From a virus, in the IMG/VR virus record IMGVR_UViG_3300020469_000280, positions 1 to 22,964 of that record: a DNA stretch of 22,964 bases, one strand, 5' to 3'. How positions within the stretch are numbered: the stretch's first letter is position 1; the number at the start of each line of letters is the position of its first letter. Position numbers and translations under genes: made by a program. Below, piece after piece: positions 1,626-20,007 of the stretch. The notes under the pieces are model-generated. The model had not been told where the DNA came from. It saw only the letters and a list, made by a program, of their open reading frames with translations, and searched no databases.

Positions 1626-1633
1626 TATAAATA
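1626..1633 (+). promoter_or_regulatory. Late promoter, TATAAATA, before gp25
   Basis: An exact match to the T4 late promoter word TATAAATA (NATAAATA in marine cyanophages) begins one base after the TAG of the gp5-like gene. It ends six bases before the gp25 ATG. T4 late transcription starts about six bases past this word, which would place the start at about 1639, immediately before the ATG. The match is seen directly; promoter activity and start position are inference. Confidence 0.72.
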
Positions 1634-1639
1634 GAGTAT

Positions 1640-2068
1640 ATGGCAACTGCAATTTCAGATAGTTCAAGCTCGATACGTGTATCGATGCCGAGAGTTTATA
1701 GAGACCTTCCAATGTCTTTTCAAAAACATCCCGGCACTGGTGATATTCGTCCTATTGAAGATTTGGCGGCTGTAAAGCAGGCAGTAAAAAATTTAATACT
1801 AACCAATTATGGAGAAAGACCATTTAATAATAATATAGGAAGTAATGTTACTTCTTATTTATTTGAACTAGTAAGTCCATTTACGGCAAATGCAATTGAA
1901 AGAGATATTGAAAATGTACTTTCTGAGCAGGAGCCAAGAATAAATGGTGTTCTAGTTCGAGTATATGATAAGTCAGATGAAAACGCATATGTGGTTGAAC
2001 TACAATATAATATCGTATCATTAAATATACAAGTGGAGACTTCATTCTTTTTAAGAAGACTAAGATAA
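1640..2068 (+). CDS. 25: Baseplate wedge protein, gp25-like
   Basis: This 142-residue protein is close to the 132 residues of T4 gp25. In T4 it joins the wedge to the hub and acts as the template on which the contractile sheath starts to polymerise. The gp25/W-like lysozyme-superfamily pattern is clear: RVYRDLPMSF at the N-terminus, AVKQAVKNLILTNYGERPF in the core, and the diagnostic EPR motif within EQEPRINGV at about residue 96. The final strands (VVELQYNIV) complete the fold. The catalytic-sounding family name does not imply enzyme activity. The start at 1640 is set by the late promoter just upstream and by the position of RVYRD relative to homologues. Only one base separates its stop from the next gene. 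No Shine-Dalgarno is visible, apart from a GAG at 1634-1636. Confidence 0.95.
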   Translation: MATAISDSSSSIRVSMPRVYRDLPMSFQKHPGTGDIRPIEDLAAVKQAVKNLILTNYGERPFNNNIGSNVTSYLFELVSPFTANAIERDIENVLSEQEPRINGVLVRVYDKSDENAYVVELQYNIVSLNIQVETSFFLRRLR

Positions 2069-2069
2069 C

Positions 2070-4275: not shown

Positions 4276-6570
4276 ATGAAAGGCCTTGAAAAAATAAGAG
4301 TTGATGAATTGGTGCCTGAGCAATTGCGCGATGTGGCTCAGAATCTTATTGACTTTCTTAAAGTATATTATTCTCAAGATGTTAATCCCACAACCTTTAT
4401 TGAGGAGATAACACAAAGTAGAGATATTGACCAGGTTGCAAATGATGCCTTTCTTGAAAAACTTGCAGAAACTATTGCTAAAGATATACCCGACTCATCG
4501 GTTGTACAGAAAACTTTTTTATTAAAAAGGTTGGTCGACTATTATAATTTAAAAGGAACAAACCAATCAGTTGTAATTTTCTTTCAATTGTTTTATGACA
4601 AAATGGCTATAGTGTTTGAGCCATGGTCTAAAGTTTTAGAAACGTCTTCAAATAATATTGGAGCTAATAAGTTAGTAAGAGTGAGGCCAATAGAAGGTAA
4701 AAATATTTTTGAACTAGAAGGTAAAGATATAACACTTCAAAATGAATTTGGGATCGTCTTAGCTTCAGGCTATGTTCAAAGAATTTCTATTGAGCAATAT
4801 GACGAATTGTTATATGTTATTCATTTTGATTCGGGTTCTACTACAGGACTATTCACGCCTGGCTATAATATTATCAACAACAATGAGATATATGGTACCT
4901 CAGTTGAAAGTTTACAATCTATTAATATACTTGATGGTGGTAGTGGATATGAAAGAGGAGACATATTATATTTAAAAGATGCAGCACTTACCTCGTTTCA
5001 AGCCAAAATAATATCAACTGATATAGACGGAAGAGCTTTAAAGTTTGATATTATTCAAAGAGGGAATGGGTCAGGTCCTAATCAGACTCGCTTTTCACGA
5101 AACAATGAGCCTATAGTTTACCAATTAAGAAAAAAGGATGGACGCATTTCAAATCCAACTACAACAGGCGCTGGGGTTGCTATGGATTTGAGTTTGAATT
5201 TTTCTACTCTTATTGATGATCCATCACAAACTACAGATAACAAAGGATTACTTTCTGACAATATTGTTTTACAGGATGGAAACTATTATAGTAAGTATAC
5301 TTATGAAGTTAGTGTTCAAATTCCATTTAGTGAATATAAAAATTCATTTGAAAATTTAATTCACCCGGTAGGTTATAATCTTTTTAATAATTTACAACTA
5401 GAAAATTTACCTCCATTAGAATTTAAAGAGAGAAGAAGTATTACAGAACTAAGTACGGTTGGTTCAGCTAACTTTTTACCGGGCGGAACCAATAGACCCT
5501 ATTCTTTATTAGGCGCTAAGATGTCAGATGCTACACCTGATGAAAATATTAGTCTTTCTCGTCACATGGGGTTAAGTAGAGATAACTATAGTGGATATCA
5601 ATCACCATATCAATCTGTTTCTCAAACCGCAGATGGACCTCTAAATTATGGACCTCACCAATATTTAAATGCTGTCACTGGAACTAGTAATGCTGGTAGA
5701 GAAACTGCTGGTCATTTTATGGAAGACTTTGTTGACCAATCTCCAACATTCAGAAATATATATGTTACAAATTCTGATTGTCCTTTGCATGATGGTCGAT
5801 ATATTCCTGGTGATTACTTAAGTCCACGAGTCATTGGAGCATTAAATGAAAATCAATTTTCAACAACTTTTGGCGGAGAAGTATACGATGCAATAGATGT
5901 TCGAACAAACGGAGGTCATGGTCCTAAAAGATATTATCGAATAGCACCTACTAATTCCAATTACCCAAGTGCGTTTGATTCAATAAGTGGAGCATACACA
6001 TATCAATATTGGACAGCACTTGCTGACCCATCAACATTTGAGAATGGTGTAAACTATAGTCATGCATTTGTACGAAGCGCAACAACTGGAAAGTGGGTTT
6101 CGGTTAGTTCTTCAGGTAGTGGCACTAACTATACAATGACTTCCAGTACTACAATCGAAGACCCTGAAGATATTTCAATGGCAGATATCGATGTAGAAAC
6201 CAGTGGTGCAAGTTATTTTAGCGCAAGTCGAACTCCAGCAGCCTCTGGAAAAGGAGCTTATCCTAGATTTGGTAAGATAAACGAATTGCCATATTATGTA
6301 CAAGATACTCGCCCTGCATTTGGAATCATATACAATCCACAGTCTGAAGATACATGGAGTTCAACCAAACATGGCAGGTGGAGACTTTCATACTATTCAC
6401 CAAGTGGTGGCTCGGCCAATGCAGACCGTGTTCAGGTTGGATTATCAATTTCCAACTCTACTACAAATTTTAATCAACCATTGAATAGGCCACCTAATAG
6501 TATAGGTTCATCTCTATTAGCTCACGAAGAAATAATTAAAGACGACAGCTATGTTGCAGAATTTAGATAA
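4276..6570 (+). CDS. Baseplate wedge protein in the gp7 position
   Basis: This 764-residue protein sits between gp6 and gp8, where T4 encodes gp7 (1032 residues), the wedge spoke. Residues ~10-125 form a helical domain I recognise as recurring in T4-like phage structural proteins: 'LIDFLKVYY', 'SRDIDQVANDAFLEKLAE', 'LLKRLVDYYNLKGTNQS', then a segment ending EPWSKVLE. Residues ~213-270 carry an 'I-x-x-G-G-S-G-Y-x-x-G-D' repeat (LDGGSGYERGD). Residues ~390-764 are rich in Tyr, Ser, Gly and Asn and look beta-structured; I recognise no domain there. No signal peptide or membrane segment is present. The start is backed by AGGAAA six bases upstream. Calling it a gp7 equivalent rests on gene order; sequence identity to T4 gp7 cannot be judged by eye. 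Confidence 0.7.
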   Translation: MKGLEKIRVDELVPEQLRDVAQNLIDFLKVYYSQDVNPTTFIEEITQSRDIDQVANDAFLEKLAETIAKDIPDSSVVQKTFLLKRLVDYYNLKGTNQSVVIFFQLFYDKMAIVFEPWSKVLETSSNNIGANKLVRVRPIEGKNIFELEGKDITLQNEFGIVLASGYVQRISIEQYDELLYVIHFDSGSTTGLFTPGYNIINNNEIYGTSVESLQSINILDGGSGYERGDILYLKDAALTSFQAKIISTDIDGRALKFDIIQRGNGSGPNQTRFSRNNEPIVYQLRKKDGRISNPTTTGAGVAMDLSLNFSTLIDDPSQTTDNKGLLSDNIVLQDGNYYSKYTYEVSVQIPFSEYKNSFENLIHPVGYNLFNNLQLENLPPLEFKERRSITELSTVGSANFLPGGTNRPYSLLGAKMSDATPDENISLSRHMGLSRDNYSGYQSPYQSVSQTADGPLNYGPHQYLNAVTGTSNAGRETAGHFMEDFVDQSPTFRNIYVTNSDCPLHDGRYIPGDYLSPRVIGALNENQFSTTFGGEVYDAIDVRTNGGHGPKRYYRIAPTNSNYPSAFDSISGAYTYQYWTALADPSTFENGVNYSHAFVRSATTGKWVSVSSSGSGTNYTMTSSTTIEDPEDISMADIDVETSGASYFSASRTPAASGKGAYPRFGKINELPYYVQDTRPAFGIIYNPQSEDTWSSTKHGRWRLSYYSPSGGSANADRVQVGLSISNSTTNFNQPLNRPPNSIGSSLLAHEEIIKDDSYVAEFR

Positions 6571-6578: not shown

Positions 6579-8471
6579 ATGAGTCAGTTAGTATTAAAAA
6601 ATGCAAAAAGTTCAAAGACCCCAGGTAAGAGTTTACTTACGATTGGAAAAAGCTTTAACTTTATTACTCAATCATTGAAAACTAAGTTTATTGATTCATT
6701 TGAATCTGATTTAGACAATAATCCTTTATACTTATTTTATGGAAGGGCTAATACATGGGATTCACCTGCTGATACCTATGAAGCAGATTCTCCTCCGCAA
6801 CCATCGAATGCTATTCAGACAGACATAGATGCTAGAAGAGATATGTTAGCTGCTAAAAGAGTACAGCCTTCAGATACTAAAGTTGCGTTTCGAAAAGTTA
6901 CTTGGAAAAGTAATACTGTGTTTGACCAATATGATACAAGAATTGATCAGACTGTAGATGGGAATAATAACTATTATGTTGTACAAGACAATCCTACCAT
7001 AATTAATTACGGTGCAGTATATAAATGTTTAGACAATAATGGCGGTTCAATTTCTAAATATAAACCATTTCAATATATTAACCCTGCGGTAACACCTCAA
7101 ATTTTACCTGATAATTATAAATGGAAATACCTGTTTACAATTTCAGGTTCCGATTTAAGTAAGTTTAATACTAATCAGTCACCGGAAGATAACTTTGTAC
7201 CTATTAAAATCGATACTTCATATAAGACACCATCCGGCACTATTGATAGAATTGATATCGACTCACCTGGATTTGGTTATAAGCCAACATTAGAAAATTC
7301 AAAATACTATGGGGTTTATGATAGTCCAGTCGTTCCAATGTTCATTGAAGGAGATGGCATAGAAATTGATTCGGCTCAGTTAGAAATTTTCTCGGTTAAT
7401 GGAGGAAGTATTACTGCATTTAAGAATGAAGAGCCATCAGATATTAAGTATGGTGACAGACAGGATAAATATACTATTTTAGGAAATCCAAAGTACAACA
7501 ATTGGGTACCTGTTAAGTTTGTTGAAGATTTGGAATCAATCACATTTGAAAGTGAATTGACAACTACCACTAATCGATCGTTCGCGTATGGGTTAGCTAA
7601 GATTGGCCCCGACGGAAAAATAGCTACGCCCGATGATGTTAAAATTATAAGTGGCGGAAGTAATTATGCTAAAGGCTCAAAGGTTAGAGTTATTCAACCA
7701 TCATGTATTGCATTTGGGGTTGGATATCACGATTCACCTGAAGCACTGTCTGGTGCAGCTTCTACTTCTAAAATAAGTAATGGTATACAAAAAGTTGTAA
7801 TTGAATCTGTTGGACAAAATTATGCTAATGCATCTCTTGTACCAATACATGGATCATCTGATAGTGAAGGTCCTAGATTATTTAAATCAGTAGCGCAAAT
7901 TGCTCCATTAAAAGGTCATGGCGGTGATCCAAAATTAGAGTTGGCTGCTAATGCTATTTTCATTAATGCTAGGATTTTAGGACGAGAAGGAAATAGAATC
8001 TCGAGCGCCGATGACTTTCCTGCAGTAAATGATTTCAGACAAGTAGGACTGATTCAATACGCAAAAAATTTACAAGGGTCAAACCTTGACACCTTATCGG
8101 TTTCTGCAAAGTACATAATGAAACTTGATGATGTCGAAAACGCGATTGAAACTTTAAGAACAAGTGGAGACGCAGTCTCTAAAGACTTATTGATTCAAGG
8201 CGTAACCAGTCGGGCTAAAGGTCGTATTGTTGATATCTTTGCCGGCGAAGGAGTAGAAAAGGAAATAAGATACGTTCAAATTGGAACAAGAAAATTTCTG
8301 AAAAACGAATATATTATTTACGAAGGAATCTCTAATGCTCTTCGGATAAAAGACATTAGAGAACCAGAGATTGACGTGTATACTGGCAATATTTTGTATA
8401 TAAATAACAATAGTAAGATACAACGAAACGAAAATCAAACTGAGACAATTAACTTTTTAATTACATTCTAG
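6579..8471 (+). CDS. 8: Baseplate wedge protein, gp8-like, enlarged
   Basis: This is a wedge component that in T4 (334 residues, dimeric) binds gp10 and gp7. The first ~215 residues are typical gp8: NPLYLFYGRANTW, the DMLAAKRV and KVAFRKVTWKSNTVFDQYD segments, NNYYVVQDNP, VYKCLDNNGG and WKYLFTISGSDLSKF. At 630 residues it is almost twice the T4 length. The extra material includes three copies of an 'I-x-x-x-G-x-x-Y' motif: DSPGFGY near residue 231, SGGSNYAKG near 359 and ESVGQNYAN near 409. The same motif occurs in the upstream neighbour. The last ~90 residues (AKGRIVDIFAGEG, IRYVQIGTRKFLKNEYI) look like the distal gp8 strands resuming after the insertion. It begins eight bases after the previous stop, behind a GATAAATA word. 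The gp8 assignment is firm; the inserted region has no known role. Confidence 0.92.
   Translation: MSQLVLKNAKSSKTPGKSLLTIGKSFNFITQSLKTKFIDSFESDLDNNPLYLFYGRANTWDSPADTYEADSPPQPSNAIQTDIDARRDMLAAKRVQPSDTKVAFRKVTWKSNTVFDQYDTRIDQTVDGNNNYYVVQDNPTIINYGAVYKCLDNNGGSISKYKPFQYINPAVTPQILPDNYKWKYLFTISGSDLSKFNTNQSPEDNFVPIKIDTSYKTPSGTIDRIDIDSPGFGYKPTLENSKYYGVYDSPVVPMFIEGDGIEIDSAQLEIFSVNGGSITAFKNEEPSDIKYGDRQDKYTILGNPKYNNWVPVKFVEDLESITFESELTTTTNRSFAYGLAKIGPDGKIATPDDVKIISGGSNYAKGSKVRVIQPSCIAFGVGYHDSPEALSGAASTSKISNGIQKVVIESVGQNYANASLVPIHGSSDSEGPRLFKSVAQIAPLKGHGGDPKLELAANAIFINARILGREGNRISSADDFPAVNDFRQVGLIQYAKNLQGSNLDTLSVSAKYIMKLDDVENAIETLRTSGDAVSKDLLIQGVTSRAKGRIVDIFAGEGVEKEIRYVQIGTRKFLKNEYIIYEGISNALRIKDIREPEIDVYTGNILYINNNSKIQRNENQTETINFLITF
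8399..8406 (+). promoter_or_regulatory. Late promoter, TATAAATA, inside gp8 3' end
   Basis: An exact TATAAATA occurs within the last 75 bases of the gp8-like gene, 69 bases before the ATG of the 2087-residue gene. Using T4 spacing, transcription would begin near 8412 and give a leader of about 64 bases. This would let the longest gene of the cluster be transcribed independently of the wedge genes. Motif seen; activity inferred. Confidence 0.5.
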
Positions 8472-8473
8472 GA
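8470..8473 (+). promoter_or_regulatory. Short-spaced ribosome binding site of the giant gene
   Basis: AGGA overlaps the TAG stop of gp8 (8469-8471) and is only two bases from the ATG at 8476. That spacing is shorter than usual, so the site may be weak or translation may be coupled to gp8. Confidence 0.3.
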
Positions 8474-8475
8474 TT

Positions 8476-11400
8476 ATGGCTATTACATCATACAATGTCG
8501 CACCTTATCACGATGACCTTAATATTAAGGATGCGAGAGGAAATTCAGCGCTGGATAAAAACTATTTAAGAATTTTATTCCAACCAGGTTTTGCGATTCA
8601 AACGCGTGAAATGAATCAAATGCAATCTGTACTTCAAGCACAGATAGATAGACTTGGGTCTTCTTTTTATCGTGACGGACAGGCAGTGTTAGATGGTGAA
8701 GCTACTTTTAGAGATAACATTGTTTATGTGGAAGTTACTACCCCTACTGGAACAACATTGGCAGATTTAACTTCAGATATTTTACTACAACCTACTATTG
8801 AAATTAGAACTGAAGGAATTACTGGAGGGCAATATGCTAAGGTTCTTGGAGTTGAAGGTATTACATCTGAAGTTGCTAGAGTTTATTTACAATCTATTTC
8901 TGATATCTCTGATAGTCCAGCAGCATCTTTAAATACTTTGGTACCAACAGGAGCAACTTTACATTATAAAGAAGATATACAATATACAAGTAAAACTCTT
9001 ACTGTTACAAATACTTCATCTATTGCAACAATTTCTGCTAACGGATACGGGTTTAGTTCTTCTATTCAAGAAGGTATCTTTTATGTAAAAGGGTCTTTTG
9101 TCCATACACCCGCAATAAAACGGTTTTGGATTAAAAATTCATATTCTGAAATTATAAGAGGAGATGTTGTATTAGCAATAACAGAAAAGATTGTAACATC
9201 CGCACAAGACGAAACACTTTTAGACAATTCAACCGGTTCATATAACTTTTCTGGTCCTGGTGCAGATAGATATTCAATTAGCTTAGACCTTGCTTTCTTT
9301 GAAAACCCTGAAGGAGTACTTAGGAATATCACAAACCAAGGTGCAAACTTTTATATAAAGAACAGCCAACAGACATTTGATATTGCTAGATTGTTTACTG
9401 CCAATGAAAGAACTATTGAAAGTGTTGAAGGTATTGAGTCAAATAATTTAGAAAAGAAACTAGCAAAAAGAACCTTTGAAGAATCTGGTAATTATACAAT
9501 AAAACCTTTTAAGGTTGCCGTACGTGAAATGGGAAGAGTTGTTCTATCATCAGAAACTGTGAATGGAATAACAACATATAATTATGATAGCACAAATGAT
9601 CCTCTTTATACTTCAGCTGAACTTGTAGCTCAACAACCATTTGGAATTAATACTATCGAAGAAGCTGAGAAAAAAGTTATATTTCAATTAGACCCGTCTA
9701 CTGCTTACATAAATGGTTTTAGGTATGACTTTCAAGATAAAGTAAATATATTATCAGACAAGGCAAGAGACGAGTCTCATATAAAATCAAAAACCGGTAT
9801 CAATATATCTTTACAACAAGGTAACTATATAGAATTGGATATGCATGATAATCCTTTTTATCAGCTAAGTGGTAATAATCCAAGAAACGACAGTAGTTCC
9901 TATTTTGCAGGTGCAGATGATAACTCCGCGTCACCAACTAAACCATGGACAGTTGATAATGTAAGAGCTGCAAATATTAATGTTCAAACTGGTTATGCTA
10001 ATTCAAAGATAAAGTCAATTCAATTTGTTTCATCTCAGTTAAGAGATGTAAGAAAGAGTGACGGAACTAATTATAAATCAGCCTTTGAAGATGCAAATGA
10101 TGCAGGTTATAATATATCAAGCAATCCCACTTCATCCGGTGTTACTTTGGGAGCAGCTCATAATTCTTCACCTACAGCAACTTATAGGATTTATCTTCAT
10201 AATAAAACAACCTTTCAAGATGTATTGGATACTTTTCCGCATTTTGTAAATAGAAAAGGATTAACAGACGGAACTGCCCCCTATCAACTTGGTAACCATT
10301 CACCGAGTGAGCTGAATGTTCTTGGAACACAATCTGCGTCAAATGCAATTACGGTTAATAATACATCGAAGAATACTTCAGTATTTAAATTACCTGCAGA
10401 AGCAGTACAAAGAGTTAAAAGAGTTAAATACACTAAGTATAAAAAATTCGTGGTTACCACCCCTTCAGTGGTTGGAGCAACAGATGTAGGTCAAGGTACA
10501 ACTGTTCAAGTAACATTAAATTCTATTTCTGCAGTCGGTGGATTGTTAAATGGAGAATCTCTTGTAGGTACAGCAAAAACCGATAAGTTTGATTATTTGG
10601 TTACACTTAAGACAACACGAACAAGTGAGGTTGATCTACATGGAGGTGCTCAACCTGGTATTGATGGTACATTTGAAAGATTGGTGAATCCAAGACATTT
10701 TGAAATTAAAGATGGCGCTACATCTTCCCAGGTTACATTAAAAGGTCTAGATGGTGATGATCACCACTTTGCATTTAAAGAAACCGATGAGGTTACAGTA
10801 TGGGCTCCAGTTGAGGTTGAGGTTGGAGGCGATAGCGGAGGAGCAGTTGGTAGACAAAAAATAAAGACTAGCTATACTCAGAATTTAGGAAGTGTTACAT
10901 ATGCAGCTGGAACTATTATTGAATTGGAAAGAGCTGACGTTATAATTTCTTCTATTGGTGGTACTTTACTGACACCGGGCCAGAACTTTGAAGTAATCGA
11001 TGACGGGTTGCAGGACCCTGAGTTTTATAGAAAACCAAAAATTAAACTAACTCAAAGTGTTAATTTTGATACAACCAGTTCGGGCACTAATGATGATCTT
11101 ACTTTTGATTATTATAAACATGGTGAAGGGGATTTCTTCTGTGTTAATTCTTATGGAAACTATGCATCTACTGGTACGCAATCAGTAAGGTATAACGATA
11201 TACCTCAGTTTAATGGCCAACCTTTATCAGAGTTTCTTGATTTTAGAGTAAAAGATACTTTCTTAGCAGAAGACGCAAGAGAGGCTTCAGATTCTCTACA
11301 AGGGCCTGTGGCTTTAGTTCCAAATAGAACATGCCAAGTTGATATGGATTACTGGGTTGGACGATATGATAGATTGATTATCGGTGATAATGGTATATTG

Positions 11401-14400
11401 CAAATTGTAAAAGGAATACCTTCAGAAAATCCAATTATACCTTCTGAGCCAGAAAATTCAATGACCCTGTATACGATCTTTATGCCTCCATATACTAGGT
11501 CGGCTAAAACAATTAATACTCAATATACAGACAATCAGCGTTCAACGATGAAAGATATTACTCGAATTAAAAACCGTGTATCTTCCATTGAGTACTACTC
11601 AGCTCTTTCGGTTTTAGAAAATAGTGCATTACAAAAGAATTTAATTAATTCTGACGGGTCAAGCAGATTTAAAAATGGAATTGTAGTTGACAACTTTACA
11701 CGAGATAAAACCGCAAATGCTAAAGACCCATTCTACCTGGCAGCCACGGATACTACTAATGGTATACTAAGACCATATTTTCATTCTAATCAATTTAGAA
11801 TATTCTATAAGTTTCCAGCTGGGATAGCAACAAATCGATCAAGCGCAGCGAATTATGATGAGAAAAAATCATCTGAGGTAGAAGATTTTTATGTTAATAA
11901 TGACGCAAATAAATTTAAGTTTAATGTGTTAACTCAGAAGGTAGACCCTAAGACTGGTCGACCACAACAATTGAATGTTCAAGGTTTTACTATTAATACA
12001 GTAAATGACACTTCGACAAATGGTGTCTATACCTTATATAATCCAAACACAAATGGGTTCCCAGAGTATCGTTATGTTTCGGGTAGTGTTGCTTTATCAG
12101 AAGCTCCTCGTCGAATTGTAAAAGTAACAAGTATTGCTGGTGTAACTAGGTGGGAAATTCAATCAATAAAGTCAGATAAAACTGGCTATGAAACTTTATA
12201 TTATTCTGAATTGCCAGGATTTGCAGGTGTTGGAGCTCCTCTGCCAAATTTAGTTGCAGGCGGATGGGTAAATGTTAATATAGAATCTATGCCACTAGTA
12301 AAAATTACTTTGGTTCTAGAAGATCGAATTGAAGAAGAAACATTGCCAGAATCTGACACAGCGAAAGAAGTCGATAGAATTATTCGAACCGGTCAGAATA
12401 ACAGAGAGGTATTAAGTCTTTGGAATGGAACAACAGAAACGTTATTCGATCAACCTAATGCATCAAGAACTGTATCTGTGCAACCTTATGAGGTAACTCA
12501 ATACGAAGGTATTGTAAAACTCTCACCATCAGGTGATGAGTGGGTTGATACTGAAAGACGTCCAGCTCAAATAATCCAAGATAATACTGCAATGGAAGTA
12601 TTAACATTCTTAAATCAAACAACAGACATATTTGAAGGCGTATTAGGAACTCAATGGAATAATGTGGAAATACTTTCACAGGGAGTAGTTGCAACTTCAG
12701 ATCAGAGTATTGTGCAAACCGGCGCATTCGTGACGGATACTATTGCAATAGAGGAACTCGCAACTGGGGTTTCAACTACTTTAGAGTCAAATACTACAAT
12801 TGAAGAATCTCAAGGAGATAAGGTTGTAAATATTAATATTGTACCATTTGTTCGTTCTCGCGATGTTTCAATTTATTGTAGTGGTCTTAAACCTAACACA
12901 AGACTATATTTCTTCTTTGATGGAAAAGACGTTACTAGGTACGTAGCTGCAACAGAAAACTTCCACGAATATTCAGTTCATGAGCAGGTCAAAAATTATA
13001 ATTCTGATTATGAGCCAAACTCTACAGAAGCTGGTGGACCCTTCCAAACTACTGATGTCAATCATTATGATTTGCCATTGTTCTCTTTAGCAGAAACCGG
13101 AGAGTTTTTCGGTACACTTAGAATACCTAATAATGAAAACCTGAGATTTAGGACTGGGTTAAAACAATTTAAAGTTACTAGCTCAAGTGTTAATAATGAA
13201 GAAGATGCAGACACTATTGCAGAAACTACATATTCTGCTTTTGGATTAAACCAAACTGTTGAAGAAACAATTACTTCAACTCGAGTACCTGAAATTGTAA
13301 CAACGCAACTATCTGAAAGAAGATCACGAACAATTCAACAAACAAGATGGTTATGGCGAAGAGACCCCATTGCTCAAACATTTACTATACCTGAAAGATA
13401 TGGAGATGGGCTTTGTGTAACAGATATTGATATATTCTTTGCAGAAAAACCTGCTTTCCCAATAGATGCTCAAGTCTATTTGGTTCCTACGGAATCTGGT
13501 ATACCAACTAATAAAGTTATACCTGGTACTAGAATATCATTACCAAACTCTCAAGTTAGGGTTCCAACAAATGGTAGAGATGAAACAGACCCAAGTAAAA
13601 TTCTTCCAACCAATTTCAAATTTGATTATCCAGTTCACTTAAAAAGCGGCTGCGAATATGCGGTAATTGTATTCTCGCCATCACCAGACTATAGAGTATG
13701 GGTAGCTGAATTAGGTAGACCGAATATTATGAATGCTAATATTCCAATCACTACTAATTCTGATATTGGAGTATTGCTAAAATCACAAAATACCAAAACT
13801 TGGACAGCAGACCAGACTAAAGATATGATGTTCAGATTGAATAAGGGTGTTTTCAAACTAAGCCATACATTTGAATTTAATACTCGCGGGTCTAGCGCTT
13901 CAAGTAACAATCAGCAAGGAATCGGAGAATATAAAGCGGCTCTAGGTGAAAGAAATATTAGACTATCGGCATTTAATATTGCATCAGATAATATAAAAGT
14001 ACCTGGTACAACTCTTACATATGATATCGACTTTACTACCTCAAGCGGCAATTTAGTTAAAGCACCCTATGGAGTACCTGATACTATTCTTCCTAAGAAG
14101 ACATATGAGTTAACTTCTTCTATCGATACTTATAGTGAAAACGTTAATAATATTGTAGTAAAAGCAACTATGAGAGGTAAAGATAGAGGCGATGGATTTT
14201 CAGATGTAACTCCAATGATAGATTTGGACAGACACTCACTTATTACATTTGATAATGTTCTTGAGAAATCGGCTCAATATAAAGTTAACGATGGAACCTA
14301 TTCTCATATTAATGATGCTCGAAAGGGTCAATACGGATTTATTACAAAAAATGTTAAATTAGCAAATCCGGCCGATGAGTTAAAAATCTTTATGAAAACA

Positions 14401-14739
14401 AATCGATTAGCCTCCAGCGGAAACTTAGAAGTCTATGCAAAAGTTAGGGGAGTTGGAGATGATTGCCCTTGGAGTGATAAACTTTGGGAAAAATGTTCTG
14501 TTGCAGATTTAAGTGGAAAAACAGAAATTGATGTTGGTGGATATTCGCCATCAATAGCCATCAATGGTAATATCAATACCTTTAGTGAGTCAGAGTTTAT
14601 TTTAAATGCAGAGGATATTCCTTTAGATAATATCAACGAAATTGTCGAATACGCAATAAAAATCGGATTTGTTAATAATACTTCTGATACCGCTAAAACA
14701 GTTAAAGTGAAAGATTTACGAGTAATAGCGACTGCATAA
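8476..14739 (+). CDS. Giant virion structural protein, DUF4815-like N-terminus
   Basis: At 2087 residues this is the largest gene in the window. The N-terminus (YNVAPYHDDLN, KNYLRILFQPGFAIQTREMN, LQAQIDRLGSSFYRDG) is the DUF4815 pattern found in large structural proteins of marine T4-like phages, and the similarity extends over roughly the first 600 residues (GIFYVKGSFV, FQLDPSTAYINGFRYDF). Residues ~1456-1490 carry FVRSRDVSIYCSGLKPNTR followed by FFFDGKDVT, a motif shared with tail-periphery proteins of many large myophages. At about residue 1623 WLWRRDPIAQTFTI starts a C-terminal domain also recurrent in such proteins. No membrane segment or signal peptide is seen. The position straight after gp8 is where T4 has gp9 and gp10, which hold the long and short tail fibres, so an outer-baseplate or fibre-attachment role is inferred. 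A possible late promoter lies 69 bases upstream. The whole reading frame is uninterrupted. Confidence 0.85.
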   Translation: MAITSYNVAPYHDDLNIKDARGNSALDKNYLRILFQPGFAIQTREMNQMQSVLQAQIDRLGSSFYRDGQAVLDGEATFRDNIVYVEVTTPTGTTLADLTSDILLQPTIEIRTEGITGGQYAKVLGVEGITSEVARVYLQSISDISDSPAASLNTLVPTGATLHYKEDIQYTSKTLTVTNTSSIATISANGYGFSSSIQEGIFYVKGSFVHTPAIKRFWIKNSYSEIIRGDVVLAITEKIVTSAQDETLLDNSTGSYNFSGPGADRYSISLDLAFFENPEGVLRNITNQGANFYIKNSQQTFDIARLFTANERTIESVEGIESNNLEKKLAKRTFEESGNYTIKPFKVAVREMGRVVLSSETVNGITTYNYDSTNDPLYTSAELVAQQPFGINTIEEAEKKVIFQLDPSTAYINGFRYDFQDKVNILSDKARDESHIKSKTGINISLQQGNYIELDMHDNPFYQLSGNNPRNDSSSYFAGADDNSASPTKPWTVDNVRAANINVQTGYANSKIKSIQFVSSQLRDVRKSDGTNYKSAFEDANDAGYNISSNPTSSGVTLGAAHNSSPTATYRIYLHNKTTFQDVLDTFPHFVNRKGLTDGTAPYQLGNHSPSELNVLGTQSASNAITVNNTSKNTSVFKLPAEAVQRVKRVKYTKYKKFVVTTPSVVGATDVGQGTTVQVTLNSISAVGGLLNGESLVGTAKTDKFDYLVTLKTTRTSEVDLHGGAQPGIDGTFERLVNPRHFEIKDGATSSQVTLKGLDGDDHHFAFKETDEVTVWAPVEVEVGGDSGGAVGRQKIKTSYTQNLGSVTYAAGTIIELERADVIISSIGGTLLTPGQNFEVIDDGLQDPEFYRKPKIKLTQSVNFDTTSSGTNDDLTFDYYKHGEGDFFCVNSYGNYASTGTQSVRYNDIPQFNGQPLSEFLDFRVKDTFLAEDAREASDSLQGPVALVPNRTCQVDMDYWVGRYDRLIIGDNGILQIVKGIPSENPIIPSEPENSMTLYTIFMPPYTRSAKTINTQYTDNQRSTMKDITRIKNRVSSIEYYSALSVLENSALQKNLINSDGSSRFKNGIVVDNFTRDKTANAKDPFYLAATDTTNGILRPYFHSNQFRIFYKFPAGIATNRSSAANYDEKKSSEVEDFYVNNDANKFKFNVLTQKVDPKTGRPQQLNVQGFTINTVNDTSTNGVYTLYNPNTNGFPEYRYVSGSVALSEAPRRIVKVTSIAGVTRWEIQSIKSDKTGYETLYYSELPGFAGVGAPLPNLVAGGWVNVNIESMPLVKITLVLEDRIEEETLPESDTAKEVDRIIRTGQNNREVLSLWNGTTETLFDQPNASRTVSVQPYEVTQYEGIVKLSPSGDEWVDTERRPAQIIQDNTAMEVLTFLNQTTDIFEGVLGTQWNNVEILSQGVVATSDQSIVQTGAFVTDTIAIEELATGVSTTLESNTTIEESQGDKVVNINIVPFVRSRDVSIYCSGLKPNTRLYFFFDGKDVTRYVAATENFHEYSVHEQVKNYNSDYEPNSTEAGGPFQTTDVNHYDLPLFSLAETGEFFGTLRIPNNENLRFRTGLKQFKVTSSSVNNEEDADTIAETTYSAFGLNQTVEETITSTRVPEIVTTQLSERRSRTIQQTRWLWRRDPIAQTFTIPERYGDGLCVTDIDIFFAEKPAFPIDAQVYLVPTESGIPTNKVIPGTRISLPNSQVRVPTNGRDETDPSKILPTNFKFDYPVHLKSGCEYAVIVFSPSPDYRVWVAELGRPNIMNANIPITTNSDIGVLLKSQNTKTWTADQTKDMMFRLNKGVFKLSHTFEFNTRGSSASSNNQQGIGEYKAALGERNIRLSAFNIASDNIKVPGTTLTYDIDFTTSSGNLVKAPYGVPDTILPKKTYELTSSIDTYSENVNNIVVKATMRGKDRGDGFSDVTPMIDLDRHSLITFDNVLEKSAQYKVNDGTYSHINDARKGQYGFITKNVKLANPADELKIFMKTNRLASSGNLEVYAKVRGVGDDCPWSDKLWEKCSVADLSGKTEIDVGGYSPSIAINGNINTFSESEFILNAEDIPLDNINEIVEYAIKIGFVNNTSDTAKTVKVKDLRVIATA

Positions 14740-14740
14740 T

Positions 14741-14947
14741 ATGGATATAAAAATTAAAGGACATAATGATTTTATTAGAGATGCTAATAGCGGCGCAGTG
14801 ATAAATACTAATAAAGACGAGTTTACAAAATATAAAGAAAGAAGAAAGTTGGCCAAGGAAAAGGAACAAGAGTTTAAGTCTCTCACACAAAAAGTGGAAA
14901 GATTAGAAAAGTTAGTAAATGAAATTACAAGACAACATACAGATTAA
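14741..14947 (+). CDS. Small coiled-coil protein of unknown function
   Basis: A 68-residue, highly charged protein. The first 30 residues (FIRDANSGAVINTNKDEF) have the style of a small conserved hypothetical protein of marine T4-like phages, in which 'RD-x-N-S-x-A-v-x-N-T' precedes a helix. Residues ~31-65 form a heptad-patterned helix (FKSLTQKVERLEKLVNEI), so an oligomeric coiled coil is likely. It begins one base after the stop of the giant gene with no visible ribosome binding site, so it is probably translated by reinitiation. Its last 29 bases overlap the next gene in another frame. A chaperone or linker for the neighbouring structural proteins is possible, but nothing in the sequence shows a function. 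Confidence 0.75.
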   Translation: MDIKIKGHNDFIRDANSGAVINTNKDEFTKYKERRKLAKEKEQEFKSLTQKVERLEKLVNEITRQHTD

Positions 14948-15512
14948 AGGGGAAGTAAGTTTTACTATTACCGACAAAGATGGTAAAGTAAGAACACACA
15001 CCCAACCAAACCTGATTACCAATGAGGGAATGGAATATCTTGTTTCTAAGTTGTTAGGTAAAAATGAAAAGCTTTATGCTCAAATAGGTCAGCCCACCTG
15101 GTCAACTTTAGCGACTACCGCGGATAAAACAAATTATCATATACAAGAAATTGCAATTGGAACAGATATTACTATTGCAGCAAAAACCCAAACATGGGAT
15201 ACTTTAAAAAGTGTAGGCAAAAAGTTAAAAAAGTCAATTACTAATCTAGAAATGGATAATACTATAGCCGGTCTTGGCTCATGGTTTTATCAATGCACAT
15301 TCGATTCTCAGGCCGCTGATACTTTAATTACTAATGGAAACGAAGAGGCAATAAAGGAGGTTATGCTTTTAGCTAAATATGGTGACTATGATTCACCACA
15401 AGAATCTGTGGTTGACTCTCGTATAATTATATCTAGAACCGTACTTCAACAACCATTTATAAAATATACAACCGACAAGGTTGCTATATCTTGGAAACTA
15501 AAACTTGGATGA
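14919..15512 (+). CDS. Virion structural protein (197 residues), unknown role
   Basis: The N-terminus 'IKGEVSFTITDKDGKV' followed by 'NLITNEGMEYLVSKLLG' follows a pattern common in small tail-tip or fibre-associated phage proteins: a beta hairpin, then 'N-L-v-t-x-x-G-x-x-x-i-x-x-x-L'. The C-terminal part (SRIIISRTVLQQPF, KVAISWKLKLG) is consistent with a beta-sandwich ending in the strand used for subunit packing. It starts at the only ATG upstream of the conserved hairpin. This forces a 29-base overlap with the coiled-coil gene, so the two products are probably made in a fixed ratio. No strong Shine-Dalgarno is visible. It ends seven bases before the start of the beta-helix fibre protein, which makes it a candidate connector or accessory of that fibre. 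The function is not established by sequence. Confidence 0.8.
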   Translation: MKLQDNIQIKGEVSFTITDKDGKVRTHTQPNLITNEGMEYLVSKLLGKNEKLYAQIGQPTWSTLATTADKTNYHIQEIAIGTDITIAAKTQTWDTLKSVGKKLKKSITNLEMDNTIAGLGSWFYQCTFDSQAADTLITNGNEEAIKEVMLLAKYGDYDSPQESVVDSRIIISRTVLQQPFIKYTTDKVAISWKLKLG

Positions 15513-15519
15513 TTTAAAA

Positions 15520-18500
15520 ATGTCTACTATATTACTTAGAAATCAACTTACAGGCACAAAAGATTATAAAGTTACTGATGTAGCTTTAACAGGTGTTTCT
15601 TTTGATGCAGCTCGAAATGAGACAACATTAGATATTCCGTCGACAGATAGCCGACATGATGCTATTTCTATTGGACAGCATATTATTCCTATGAGGCAGG
15701 GCAATCCTTTTTCAAATACTAGTGGTTATAATAGCTTAGATATTCTTCACCCTGAAGAATCTTTACGAGTCATTAATAAAATTACTGGTACAGCAGAAAG
15801 AAAGCTAGTTTTATATGGAGACCAAAGAGAAAAATTTCCTGGTGCAAATGGAAATGGGCAAACTGGAAATGGTTCACCTGATGCTTATAATTTAGCAATT
15901 AGTGTTTCTAAAATAAAAAGAAACCGAAAGTATCGTATTGTTGACCCCGGTGAAACTACTTGGAAGTATTTTGGAAATTTGCATAATAACTCAGCTGAGG
16001 CTTCTCGTGATAGTAGATTAGCTTCAGTTGGAACAACTTTTATTGCATCATCATCTGGTACATCTACAAATTCAGGTGATGCTGATTCTCCAATTTTTGA
16101 TATTGGACCATATTTTGGTGGTGTTGGATCAACAGACCTTTCTTATACAATTAATTCTACAGGTATTACGGCTGGAAGAGAAACCGCTGATGTAATTGGA
16201 AGATACGATAAAGTAACTCCTTACTTATACCAAAATGAAACAAGTGATATAGTAATTCAAAAAATAGGTGCTACTGATAATAATGTAACAGGAAGGTGGA
16301 CAATTTGGAATAGAAATACTGGAAAGATTTATTTTGAAGATAAGTTAGCTTCATCTTCCAGCTCTTATAGATTTGATTCACCTAGTTTAAATTCTGCAAC
16401 TACTACTTCAACTGCCTTATCATATAGGCCGGGTATTGGAGATATACCATCTCAAGCTCCAGCTATTGTAGGAAGTGCTAACTCACCAAAAATTGAATGG
16501 AATGATAGAACAGTTAGTGTACCAACTCAATTTCAATATACAACTTTTCCTGAGTCGGCCGGCACAGTCGTTGAAGTAGCTCATGTTAGTTCTATGTTTG
16601 GACTAAATAGACCACTTTCTAATACTGATATTGATGGTAACTTTGTTCATTTAGAAAATAGTAAATTAGCCTCTGATGGTTCTCAACCTGTTGATGGTAA
16701 CTTAATTGTAAATGGAAGTTTAAGTTCTCAATCTTTAGATGTGACAAATCAAATTGCTGTTGGTGGTGCAGAACCTTTTTCTTCAAATACTGGTCTTACA
16801 TTAGGAGGTATGGACTTAGAAGTTAATAACATTAGACTTTCTGGTACTATTAATGACGATGCTCTATTTAAAACATATGGTATAATTGGATTCCCACATT
16901 CATTTATTGCCGATTATAATCCTAAGTATAGCGGAATTGAGCCAGTTACAATTTTATACTTTAGTAATGTTTCTGATATAGCTGCTGGTAATAATATTTC
17001 TACATTAGGAAATAGTAAAGCAGGAAGAGTACGAAGAGTTAATTCAGAATATAATTATGTTCAAGTGTCAGAAACTAATGCGACAAATAAATTTATTGTC
17101 GGTGATACGCTAACAGGTAAAGCTAGCTTAGGACCAATTTTAAGAGTTCTTAACCCTGAAGATTATTTAAAGGTTGGACAGAATTTGCGCATCTTTGGCC
17201 TTGGACAAAGAGGTGATCCATTAAAAACTTATACGGGTGATTCATCACCTAATCATCTTATCTTTAAGGCAAGTACGCCTTCAGCTCCTTCAGTAACAGG
17301 AAGATTTGATCAGCAAGGAAGTAGAACTTTTAGTTATAAGCTGGCATTATTTAATCAATTAACTGGTAAAATAACTGGATTATCATCTGCTTCAACCGTC
17401 TCAAATGCTCCAAACCTTTTAGATTTTGATAAAAGTAATTACGTTCAATTAACAAACATTTCAAGACCAGCTGCTCATTTCCTTGTATTAATTTATAGAA
17501 AATCAAATGATGAGGCAACTCATCACCTGATTGAGGTTTTAGGAAATGAAGATTTGGGAACACTTACTTCAAGTCTTACACACAATGACTATGGGGCATT
17601 TAATAAACCTCAATGGAGTAAATTAAATAACTCTGGATATTATTATACAGCGGATGCTGGAATGGTTTATGTACCACTAAACGAAGATGAAAGAAACACG
17701 GCAGGTGGTACAGTAGGTTCAAGTAAAACAACCATACCTTATATTGGAGAGCAAAACAAATATTCTAGAGGGTTTTTAGATACTAGAGTTTCTTCAACAA
17801 TGATAAACCCCAAACTTAATTTAAGCGCAAGTCCTGCTTATTTTAGAATTACTGAAACCTCCCTTTGTAAAGGACCTAGTAATGGTTATTCATTAACTGA
17901 AAATAGACTACACGACTCACCAAATATTGAATTAAATTGGTATGATCTTGAAGACCAATTTCAAGGATTTAATAGTCCATTAGGTGATGATGGTAATCCC
18001 AATCCATTGGCTGGCTCTAATGGAACTGGGTATGGAAAAATGAATGAAATAGAGTTTTTCATTGATAACAGTCGAATAGTCGATGGCCCTGACTCAGGAA
18101 TTACTGGTGGAATACAAAAGTTAATTCAAGACAAAATTTCGGCAGGTAGTAGAAGTGTTAGATTGCCAGGAGGTGTTTATTATTCAAAACTAATTACACT
18201 TCCTAGTGATTTTAAATTTCAAGGAGCATCTGATAGAAATACTACAATTAAATCAATTCCATGGCTTGACAACTCTTCAAACACCAAAACAGTTTATGGT
18301 GGTAATGTCTCTGAAATATATGGAAATTTTGCAACCAGCTCTGGTTCAATTAATGATCATGCCGGAGTACCAAAAACCTATCAAGCAAAGGCCGCATTGG
18401 AATTTTATCTTGAAACTACTACAGGTGAAGTTGGCACTTCTTCAACCCTATCTAGTGGAATTTCGAGATTCGGTAATTTCAATTCACAGACAACAAAACT

Positions 18501-20007
18501 AAGTTCATCTGCTGGAATATTTGAAAACGTATTTGCCGGTCAAAAGGCATATGCTCGAGCGGTATTAGAGTTTGATGGAAAAGATAATGTAGAAGTTTCT
18601 GATATACGACTTGATGGTAATGTTATAAATCAAAGTGTGGTTCAAATGGACTTAACTGGAAAAAGTAATTTTACAGTGTCAGGGCAATTAAGTAAAAACA
18701 TTTCAATAAAAAATGTATCTATTGCGGATAATGTTCTTGGAGGTTTTTACGGAGAAGAAATTTCTGAAGGTATTATTGAAGGTAGTATTATTAAAGATGG
18801 CGGAATTGTATTAAGCACAAGCAATAAAGCAGCTGGATTATATATGCCTGGGTCTTCAAGAATGAGACTAACATCAAACTCAATAGAAAACTTTTCAAAT
18901 GCAAATGATTTAACTTCAAATCAAAACACTACTTTGGTTGGCAATATCGTGCGAGACACCGGTTCTGGTATATTGGCATATGCTACTTCTAATTTTATTC
19001 ACGAAGGAAACCTTATATTAGGTCCAGCCGATGAATATATACCAGTTGTTGATACACTAAACTCTGAGTATGATCAACTTAACATCAATCTTATTACAGA
19101 ATCAGGTGCTGGAGTTGGAGATTTTATTTCTGACACAATACAATTTTTAAGAGACAACTCACCAATGGACTTAAGGCCTAATGATAATACTAAGCCTGAT
19201 GTAATAGATCAGGTTGGGGTAGGATTAACAACTACTATTAGAACTATGGTCGGGTTAGGGACTCAAACATATTTCTTACCTGATGATATCAATGGAGTTG
19301 GATTTAATTACTCATTTGGTGACCCAACAAATACCTCAGCTAGTGGATATATAATTCAGCCTAATACTGAAGTTGAAGATGGAACTATCACTTTAGCAGC
19401 TGGTAACTTATCATATAAAATTCCGCAAGCAAAAATTCAAGAATTAAAAACTGCAGCTGGGTTTGATGTCTTAAGTACAAGGTATAGTTCATTACCTAGT
19501 CGACCGGTCGGTGAGCAATTAATTGGTTTAGTTTATGATGTTAATGGAATAGAATATCTCTACATGGAAAATGACGGTGATATAATTAAATGGAATAAGA
19601 TCGAAGTTAATGATACTCTAGATGCTCAAACTATTAAGTTTACCATTGATGCAAATTTTGCTAACTTATTTGCAATAGGAGATAGAATAATCTTTACTTC
19701 AGGTGCACCATCATCATCAATAGGTAGAGCCGACAACTTCTCAACATCATTAATATCTCCAGTTAAAGATGCTAATAATAGAGATTTGTATCGATCATTA
19801 CCAGTAAAAGGCAAAACAGTTAAAAATGCATCCTCGGCAGAGATTGTTGTTGGAATTAGTAATGACGACGGGTTTACATCAAATGATAGAGATGGTATTA
19901 GCAACCAACCATTTGATACTCGAGATTTAACTGCGACTAAACAAAATGAATGCAGACTTGGTATACAAAATACTTTTTCAATCACTCGAGGTAGAATAGT
20001 TATATAA
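15520..20007 (+). CDS. Large fibre/tailspike-like protein with beta-helix region
   Basis: This 1495-residue structural protein probably contacts the host surface. In order: residues ~1-130 are an N-terminal region (TILLRNQLTGTKDYKV). Residues ~136-185 hold a 'G/K-x-Y-x-I-x-x-x-G-x-T-x-W' module seen in many marine phage tail proteins (KYRIVDPGETTWKYFG, then VGTTFIAS). Around residue 360, 'GLNRPLSNTDIDGNFVHLEN' is a repeat-type fibre motif, followed by DGNLIVNGSL. Residues ~586-690 look like a fibronectin-III-type sandwich (SYKLALFNQLTGKITGLSSA). Residues ~840-1170 resemble a right-handed pectate-lyase-like beta-helix: an 'I-Q-x-x-I-x-x-x-x-x-x-x-V-x-L-P-G-G-x-Y' entry, then stacked strands such as NISIKNVSIADN and TLVGNIVRDTGSGI. 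The remainder is unassigned. The frame also allows a TTG at 15505 that overlaps the upstream gene; the ATG at 15520 is preferred because conserved sequence begins there. No enzymatic residues can be confirmed by eye. Confidence 0.83.
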   Translation: MSTILLRNQLTGTKDYKVTDVALTGVSFDAARNETTLDIPSTDSRHDAISIGQHIIPMRQGNPFSNTSGYNSLDILHPEESLRVINKITGTAERKLVLYGDQREKFPGANGNGQTGNGSPDAYNLAISVSKIKRNRKYRIVDPGETTWKYFGNLHNNSAEASRDSRLASVGTTFIASSSGTSTNSGDADSPIFDIGPYFGGVGSTDLSYTINSTGITAGRETADVIGRYDKVTPYLYQNETSDIVIQKIGATDNNVTGRWTIWNRNTGKIYFEDKLASSSSSYRFDSPSLNSATTTSTALSYRPGIGDIPSQAPAIVGSANSPKIEWNDRTVSVPTQFQYTTFPESAGTVVEVAHVSSMFGLNRPLSNTDIDGNFVHLENSKLASDGSQPVDGNLIVNGSLSSQSLDVTNQIAVGGAEPFSSNTGLTLGGMDLEVNNIRLSGTINDDALFKTYGIIGFPHSFIADYNPKYSGIEPVTILYFSNVSDIAAGNNISTLGNSKAGRVRRVNSEYNYVQVSETNATNKFIVGDTLTGKASLGPILRVLNPEDYLKVGQNLRIFGLGQRGDPLKTYTGDSSPNHLIFKASTPSAPSVTGRFDQQGSRTFSYKLALFNQLTGKITGLSSASTVSNAPNLLDFDKSNYVQLTNISRPAAHFLVLIYRKSNDEATHHLIEVLGNEDLGTLTSSLTHNDYGAFNKPQWSKLNNSGYYYTADAGMVYVPLNEDERNTAGGTVGSSKTTIPYIGEQNKYSRGFLDTRVSSTMINPKLNLSASPAYFRITETSLCKGPSNGYSLTENRLHDSPNIELNWYDLEDQFQGFNSPLGDDGNPNPLAGSNGTGYGKMNEIEFFIDNSRIVDGPDSGITGGIQKLIQDKISAGSRSVRLPGGVYYSKLITLPSDFKFQGASDRNTTIKSIPWLDNSSNTKTVYGGNVSEIYGNFATSSGSINDHAGVPKTYQAKAALEFYLETTTGEVGTSSTLSSGISRFGNFNSQTTKLSSSAGIFENVFAGQKAYARAVLEFDGKDNVEVSDIRLDGNVINQSVVQMDLTGKSNFTVSGQLSKNISIKNVSIADNVLGGFYGEEISEGIIEGSIIKDGGIVLSTSNKAAGLYMPGSSRMRLTSNSIENFSNANDLTSNQNTTLVGNIVRDTGSGILAYATSNFIHEGNLILGPADEYIPVVDTLNSEYDQLNINLITESGAGVGDFISDTIQFLRDNSPMDLRPNDNTKPDVIDQVGVGLTTTIRTMVGLGTQTYFLPDDINGVGFNYSFGDPTNTSASGYIIQPNTEVEDGTITLAAGNLSYKIPQAKIQELKTAAGFDVLSTRYSSLPSRPVGEQLIGLVYDVNGIEYLYMENDGDIIKWNKIEVNDTLDAQTIKFTIDANFANLFAIGDRIIFTSGAPSSSIGRADNFSTSLISPVKDANNRDLYRSLPVKGKTVKNASSAEIVVGISNDDGFTSNDRDGISNQPFDTRDLTATKQNECRLGIQNTFSITRGRIVI

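Follow-up and report, generated by a model that had tools for sequence, protein, structure and literature searches.

A giant DUF4815/VrlC-family protein and its small linked gene in a T4-like baseplate cluster

The window analysed here is the entire 22,964-base virus record IMGVR_UViG_3300020469_000280, itself a fragment, whose 11 open reading frames (ORFs) were scanned with Pfam. Its genes follow the order gp5 (OB domain), gp25, gp6, a protein in the gp7 slot, a gp8-like protein, a giant DUF4815 protein, a 68-residue ORF and three further ORFs. A first-pass annotation, made from the sequence letters and a list of ORFs, placed a protein of 2087 residues at 8476-14739 in the gp9/gp10 position. 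This ORF is confirmed on the + strand, and it does occupy the T4 gp9/gp10 gene-order slot after the gp8-like gene, from which it is separated by four bases. The giant protein is a full-length member of the known DUF4815/VrlC family and the T4-like counterpart of gp106 of Listeria phage A511 and ORF65 of Staphylococcus phage phi812.

Pfam family PF16075 (DUF4815) matches the giant protein with an overall E-value of 2.4e-36 and 125.7 bits, against a curated cut-off of 30, and is the only Pfam family found in it. The DUF4815-like N-terminus described in the first-pass annotation is therefore real, although the match is spread as four stretches over residues 27-1361 and is not just N-terminal. Around the second stretch, residues 76-254 of the A511 protein align with residues 196-447, and residues 75-258 of the phage K protein with residues 196-451. 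Alignment coverage reaches 0.99-1.00 over residues 951-1100. The middle motif SGLKPNTRLYFFFDG and the distal RRDPIAQTF, both noted previously, are present and lie within conserved columns of the family. PHROG 358 spans residues 2-1112 and PHROG 877 residues 1312-1925, and both are labelled as being of unknown function. Relatives were found by tblastn in 1498 of 50,697 phage records, every one below 60% identity, including cyanophages and phages of Staphylococcus, Salmonella, Listeria and Vibrio. In the records examined, these proteins are labelled 'hypothetical', 'virulence associated' or 'structural', where 'virulence associated' is merely a name. DUF4815/VrlC belongs to a set of five proteins that 31 pelagimyophage and 4 cyanomyophage genomes are reported to share (PMC7029224).

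The relationship extends over the whole length of the protein. When the single protein was compared with PDB sequences, the only match at E <= 1 was the 1152-residue 'DUF4815 domain-containing protein', ORF65, of entry 9euf (7.5e-30), printed as six ordered stretches. The same chain was recovered by profiles of the C half (residues 985-2087, 65 sequences; 7.3e-73) and the N half (residues 1-1112, 56 sequences; 8.7e-49). Entries 9euf, 9eui and 9euj represent the phi812 baseplate, solved before and after contraction, and the earlier description of the giant protein as the least understood large piece of the particle is consequently out of date, given these cryo-EM structures of a homologue. A511 gp106 is itself a full DUF4815 protein (Pfam 2.1e-197) that PHROG 877 matches over its entire length. 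It aligns with the giant protein in four ordered blocks (residues 5-81, 196-447, 948-1047 and 1315-2082) that reach A511 residue 1145 of 1151, and hhalign pairs it with the C-half profile at 100% (E 4.5e-54; C half only). Salmonella phage protein Vi01_169c aligns in three blocks covering residues 1 to 2087. Together, the sequence, profile and hhalign comparisons show the giant protein to be collinear with A511 gp106 and phi812 ORF65 along its whole length. The gene order is that of the family as well, in that the series of gp6-type gene, gp7 slot, gp8 or BW3, DUF4815 and small gene is identical in A511 and phage K.

Structural models of the two halves, built from the same 65 and 56 sequences, lead to the same relative. 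The top match of the C-half model is 9euf_0, the phi812 ORF65 chain (Foldseek 2.9e-27; Z 24.9; 550 aligned, 5.8 A). For the N-half model, the top Foldseek matches are 9eui_Q (1.3e-14) and 9euj_G (9.5e-12), with Z-scores of 13.9 for both 9euj_G (340 aligned, 6.0 A) and 9eui_Q (426 aligned, 7.2 A) and of 9.1 for 9euf_0. Nine Foldseek matches of the C half fall at E <= 0.001, three of them from phi812 and six from unrelated large beta-rich proteins of low probability. At moderate model confidence, the giant protein appears to share the fold of the solved phi812 chain. Two jelly rolls are predicted in the C half, with borders taken from the strands of the model; the structure comparison reports the first and last aligned residues only. 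The best C-half match outside phi812 is the lectin-like domain of Cwp84 (Z 14.0, 155 aligned, 3.2 A). The model also contains long paired strands near residues 1418-1455 and 1580-1625, of low confidence over most of their length, and the insert at residues 1111-1314 is likewise modelled with low confidence. For a predicted beta-sandwich in the N half (about residues 645-780), the only matches are to a baseplate chain of phage P1 (Z 6.3) and to gp6-type chains of T4 (Z about 5), and we take this to be a common arrangement.

Features of the giant gene and the adjoining genes, with coordinates in the window
Feature	Position	Strand	Basis
gp7-slot protein	4276..6570	+	shares PHROGs 17744, 2885 and 26741 with T4 gp7
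gp8-like wedge protein, C-terminus weakly like A511 gp105/BW3	6579..8471	+	Pfam Phage-Gp8 4.1e-9; PHROG 438 8e-58
DUF4815/VrlC-family baseplate protein, 2087 residues	8476..14739	+	ATG start; Pfam, PDB sequence search, profiles, structure matches, hhalign
First DUF4815 stretch, family positions 9-64	8554..8718	+	Pfam
Second DUF4815 stretch, family positions 68-200	9061..9531	+	Pfam
Expanded region, residues about 448-947, with predicted beta-sandwich	9817..11316	+	alignment; model, weak baseplate beta-sandwich matches (Z 5-6)
Third DUF4815 stretch, best conserved core, predicted helix at residues 1026-1053	11314..11727	+	Pfam, model, alignment
Apparently lineage-confined insert of ~200 residues, residues about 1111-1314	11806..12417	+	alignment, phage-record search, IMG/VR scan
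Fourth DUF4815 stretch, family positions 519-568	12412..12558	+	Pfam
SGLKPNTRLYFFFDG motif, residues 1469-1483	12880..12924	+	located in translation
RRDPIAQTF motif, residues 1628-1636	13357-13383	+	located in translation
Predicted lectin-like jelly roll, residues about 1629-1792 plus strand near 1315	13360..13851	+	model
Predicted C-terminal jelly roll, residues about 1829-2087 plus strand near 1062	13960..14736	+	model; meprin, Eph-receptor (EphA2) and CBM22-like matches, Z about 8-11
Putative 68-residue partner protein, coiled-coil-like C-terminus, positional counterpart of A511 gp107	14741..14947	+	PHROG 473 'virion structural protein'

The length of 2087 residues is not exceptional, because open frames of the family extend to 2828 residues in the fetched loci; the named homologues range from 1151 (A511) to 2747 residues (S-PM2). 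The region of residues 448-947 is about 360 residues larger than in A511 gp106, which has only about 137 residues there. The insert at residues 1111-1314 is covered by a fraction of only 0.02-0.35 of 99 sequences per 50-residue block and has no match at E <= 1 in the 50,697 phage records. A pattern-based scan of IMG/VR, which detects close relatives only, found it in two contigs, 100% and 80% identical. Judged from these sequence comparisons, the insert appears to be confined to the lineage of the window virus. In five loci (L025, L029, L030, L032 and L033), the family is split over two successive ORFs (1478 + 1002 or 1804 + 730 residues, for example), with the small gene after the second; these are either natural two-chain versions or sequence errors.

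Absent from the first-pass annotation is the 68-residue ORF, which starts one base past the stop of the giant gene and overlaps the next ORF by 29 bases. Its occurrence was examined in 128 fetched loci that include the end of the family gene plus 330 bases beyond, a sample containing redundant contigs and four named phages. An ORF of 50-110 residues starts between -60 and +70 of the family gene end in 122 of these loci, compared with 39 of the 386 other long open frames (400 residues or more) in these loci; the loci without one are L128, L130, L150, L164, L170 and L173. Among the 122 small ORFs, 116 match the window protein by phmmer at E <= 1e-3, and all 122 match the profile after iteration. 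The small gene is thus nearly always linked to the DUF4815/VrlC family. Its profile also matches ORFs of S-MbCM100, HTVC008M, pf16, S-PM2, Bakedbeans, Vi01 and AG3 (5.9e-24 to 1.3e-8), and no ORF of the T4 region was matched at E <= 20.

The relationship of this marine small family to the corresponding Gram-positive phage proteins is less clear. A511 gp107 gives a borderline match to the profile (E 0.0079 among 2357 ORFs from ten regions; PHROG 473 E 0.02), which a coiled-coil bias could explain because unrelated ORFs from AG3 (0.012), Vi01 (0.018) and phage K (0.054) score close to it. Phage K gp147, a protein of 52 residues encoded after gp148, has no significant match to the profile (E 6.7). 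In PDB searches, gp147 had no match and the 68-residue window protein none below E 1.4, which lends no support to the idea that the small protein is visible as a fixed component of the Kayvirus baseplate. Its counterparts in phages Deep-Blue and Vp4 are listed as chaperones (PMC11406892).

Given its homology and its place in the gene order, the giant protein is expected to act like A511 gp106 on a T4-like wedge rim. It is probably a structural baseplate protein that forms trimeric pyramids on the peripheral wedge arm and turns to the cell after fibre binding. In A511, the proximal fibre is described as three gp105 dimers bearing two gp106 trimers, attached via gp104 (PMC9863714). The gp106 trimers are pyramids, two per fibre, with one directed toward the capsid and one downward; once the distal fibre gp108 has bound, the pyramids that pointed upward swing round to the host and come into contact with the cell wall (PMC9863714; PMC11406892). 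By analogy, three copies of the giant protein would form a pyramid-shaped complex on the peripheral wedge arm, beside the gp8-like protein. Binding of distal fibres to the host would cause the pyramids to rotate toward the cell, where their C-terminal jelly rolls may contact surface glycans, and this movement might help to secure attachment and to open the baseplate, allowing sheath contraction. The 68-residue protein is probably a dedicated partner of the giant protein, either as a chaperone or as a small part of the pyramid.

Observations on two relatives bear on this proposal. Mass spectrometry of AG3 virions identified ORF206 as one of six intense bands analysed, with a predicted mass of 177.2 kDa, 126.3 kDa on the gel and 36 peptides giving 39.6% coverage; the authors took it for a tailspike (PMC3121705). 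The product of orf00206 in the AG3 record is a full-length match to the DUF4815/VrlC family, with a mass computed here of 177.2 kDa. In phage S-PM2d co-cultured with Synechococcus, early mutations are reported in gp8 and in S-PM2d084, a gene 'associated with virulence' (PMC9910659). We infer that S-PM2d084 is S-PM2p087, the DUF4815 gene, because the gene numbers are offset by a constant three (S-PM2d081, of 3048 residues, is S-PM2p084, and S-PM2d088, of 3338 residues, is S-PM2p091). The early mutation is a hint in favour of the proposed role.

Several points weigh against a pyramid protein of the A511 type. Identity to the named relatives is only about 26-31%, and the models are of moderate quality: the C half has a mean predicted local distance difference test (pLDDT) score of 67.5 and a predicted template-modelling (pTM) score of 0.62, with 359 of 1103 residues below 50, and the N half has a mean pLDDT of 71.1 and a pTM of 0.59, with 222 of 1112 residues below 50. 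The query TM-scores from Foldseek are 0.41 for the C half with 9euf_0 and 0.25 for the N half with 9eui_Q. Because the giant protein is 1.8 times the length of the A511 and phi812 versions, extra functions are possible. Finally, jelly rolls are common folds, and a lectin-like match therefore does not demonstrate sugar binding.

The jelly rolls could also be the receptor-binding unit of a protein that is mainly an adhesin or host-range determinant, with the remainder serving as a long anchor. We regard this as rather unlikely. It would account for the two lectin-like or carbohydrate-binding-module-like folds in the model and is in keeping with the Bacillus phage homologues Deep-Blue Gp176 and Vp4 Gp120, in which a lectin domain resembling that of Cwp84 is reported to precede a domain resembling a carbohydrate module (PMC11406892). 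The early mutation of the S-PM2d homologue, which arose under host selection (PMC9910659), and the speculation in a review on host recognition in Ackermannviridae (PMC11721090) fit it as well. Conservation points both ways. The C-terminal jelly roll is less conserved (residues 1801-2087, coverage 0.59-0.89 and identity 0.15-0.33 per block), which favours an adhesin. Against it, the first (residues 1601-1800, coverage 0.85-0.96 and identity 0.29-0.36) is conserved like the core and unlike typical receptor-binding tips. Moreover, further ORFs downstream may be fibres, given one weak match to a tail-fibre PHROG in the first of the three after the 68-residue gene. The last of the three matches a virion-protein PHROG.

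The first-pass annotation suggested that one giant protein takes over from T4 gp9, gp10 and gp11 by combining fibre socket, pin and wedge connector (the short-fibre connector). The protein does lie in the same slot after gp8, and a review reports Ackermannviridae as having a VrlC-like protein and no gp9-gp11 or gp12 (PMC11721090). No gp9, gp10, gp11 or gp12 family was found by Pfam in the 11 window ORFs, nor any gp9/10_N domain (PF07880) at E <= 1 in a six-frame search of the window, which upholds the earlier statement that no such homologue follows gp8 for the window ORFs; in a fragment, absence from the whole genome is not demonstrable. A fusion or replacement is nevertheless very unlikely. 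With hhalign, gp9 reaches a probability of 0.19% against the N half, gp10 one of 0.11% against the C half and 0.07% against the N half, and gp11 and gp12 reach 0.31% and 0.13% against the C half, indicating no sequence relation. Neither Pfam nor the profiles assign the giant protein to gp9/gp10, gp11 (PF08677) or gp12 (middle, collar and receptor domains), and its best structural relative is phi812 ORF65. T4 gp9-gp12 are not among the listed structural matches of either half, although such a listing excludes nothing.

The distribution of these genes among relatives also argues against a fusion. Of 16 records searched, comprising 14 named phages and two long IMG/VR contigs, 12 contain DUF4815. 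The gp9/10_N domain occurs in T4, KVP40, Aeh1 and RB49, over the cut-off also in the DUF4815-bearing S-MbCM100, where the gene lies two genes upstream of gp8, and below the cut-off in one contig. A separate gp9/10_N protein over the cut-off is found in seven of 31 related contigs, each longer than 31 kb and fetched via a homologue of the giant protein, some being near-duplicates; two more fall below the cut-off, and seven is a lower bound because the contigs are fragments. A separate gp9/gp10 homologue in the same genome, which had been named as grounds for refutation, therefore occurs in relatives, although not in the window fragment. Strict mutual exclusion of gp9/10 and DUF4815 was likewise considered and rejected, given the presence of both in S-MbCM100 and the seven contigs. 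The pattern of gp11 is different and more in line with a replacement, as it was detected only in T4, KVP40, Aeh1 and RB49, all without DUF4815, in none of the 12 DUF4815 records and in none of the 31 contigs; the contig search had no positive of its own, and the model used in it is the one that detected gp11 in those four phages. Accordingly, it is gp11, rather than gp9/10, that seems to be missing where DUF4815 appears; gp12 was examined only in the window ORFs and in one profile comparison. A homologue of the giant gene together with a separate gp9/10_N-type protein of 336-416 residues is seen in the records of L064, L077, L087, L090, L105, L106 and L109 and at L037:7042-8268.

PMC7029224, in which no homologue of gp7 was detected among pelagi- and cyanomyophages, proposes that VrlC takes the place of T4 gp7. 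This is most improbable because the gp7 slot is filled, both here (4276-6570) and in HTVC008M by proteins having PHROGs 17744, 2885 and 26741 in common with T4 gp7 (a weak link, 1.7e-5 to 3.6e-4), and in A511 (gp104) and phage K (TmpF/ORF63) by a separate large protein beside DUF4815.

The neighbouring genes show additional features. BW3 (PF25691), found in A511 and phage K, weakly matches the gp8 proteins of T4-like phages (E 5e-7 to 0.03) and for this reason looks like a short relative of gp8. The matches are N-terminal for pf16, HTVC008M and S-MbCM100 and C-terminal for Aeh1, HTVC008M, T4, RB49 and pf16. The C-terminus of the window's gp8-like ORF was considered as a docking motif for the pyramids (BW3TFN positions 146-174, E 0.0041). 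This candidate was rejected because the same end is weakly present in gp8 of Aeh1 (3.3e-6), T4 (0.0023) and RB49 (0.029), which are free of DUF4815; KVP40, also without DUF4815, yielded no match to the BW3-type gp8 C-terminus. The gp5-like hub protein (723-1625, 300 residues) has an OB domain and no lysozyme domain in the Pfam scan. The gp6-like protein (2070-4265) continues for about 140 residues past its PHROG 219 match and ends in a low-complexity tail rich in Thr, Asn and Gly, and an ORF of 1500 residues at 15505-20007 has no Pfam or PHROG match. Exact copies of the octamer TATAAATA, the T4 late-promoter consensus as quoted in PMC5587285, where one is reported upstream of the pf16 VrlC-like gene, lie at 1626, 8399 and 20003, all on the + strand and 14, 77 and 24 bases 5' of a gene start. 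Only 3.5% of window positions are within 80 bases of a gene start, a cut-off chosen after seeing the octamers, and matches with one mismatch are at chance level. Within 8000-15600 there are 10 terminator-like hairpins, compared with 3.3 (standard deviation 2.0) in shuffles, and all 10 are inside ORFs.

New here are the linked 68-residue gene, the apparently lineage-confined insert at residues 1111-1314 and the filled gp7 slot. On a broader and more tentative view, which we think possible but less probable than the pyramid role itself, the gp8/BW3-type protein, the DUF4815 pyramid and a coiled-coil partner of 60-80 residues might work as a peripheral adhesion module of three genes, interchangeable with the gp11/gp12 short fibres and common to marine T4-like viruses, Ackermannviridae and Gram-positive Herelleviridae. 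Clade-specific inserts would then enlarge the pyramid, and A511 gp107 and the small partner found in T4-like viruses would be one and the same old protein. If so, inserts such as that at 1111-1314 would offer the host a new pyramid surface. The surprise is low, yet the stretch-by-stretch tie to the solved phi812 protein provides a testable picture of T4-like attachment without recognisable gp11, makes the attachment machinery of a widespread virus group directly testable and draws attention to a tiny linked partner gene.

Compared with known systems, the giant protein stands at varying distances. T4 gp9, gp10, gp11 and gp12 have the same gene-order place downstream of gp8 and no detectable sequence relation to it. 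S-PM2p087, the 'VrlC protein' of HTVC008M and S-MbCM100_086 share its position between gp8 and the small gene, but are only about 26-30% identical, carry other inserts and range from 2001 to 2747 residues. The VrlC/VriC proteins of Ackermannviridae (Vi01_169c; AG3 ORF206, 1612 residues) match over the full length and are followed by an 82-residue gene that matches the marine small family, whereas they have about 12 residues at the site of the 1111-1314 insert and adjoin a tailspike cluster. Phi812 ORF65 is the top structural match for both halves, in chains from before and after contraction, although it has 1152 residues and about 20% identity over the aligned residues; phage K gp148 is a homologue of the same length. 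A511 gp106 differs in having 1151 rather than 2087 residues, without most of residues 448-947 and 1111-1314, and in the Gram-positive host of its phage. It is also a full and collinear DUF4815 protein in the order gp104, gp105 (BW3), gp106 and gp107. The giant protein is thus nothing exceptional and adds a further, informative member to an already known baseplate family.

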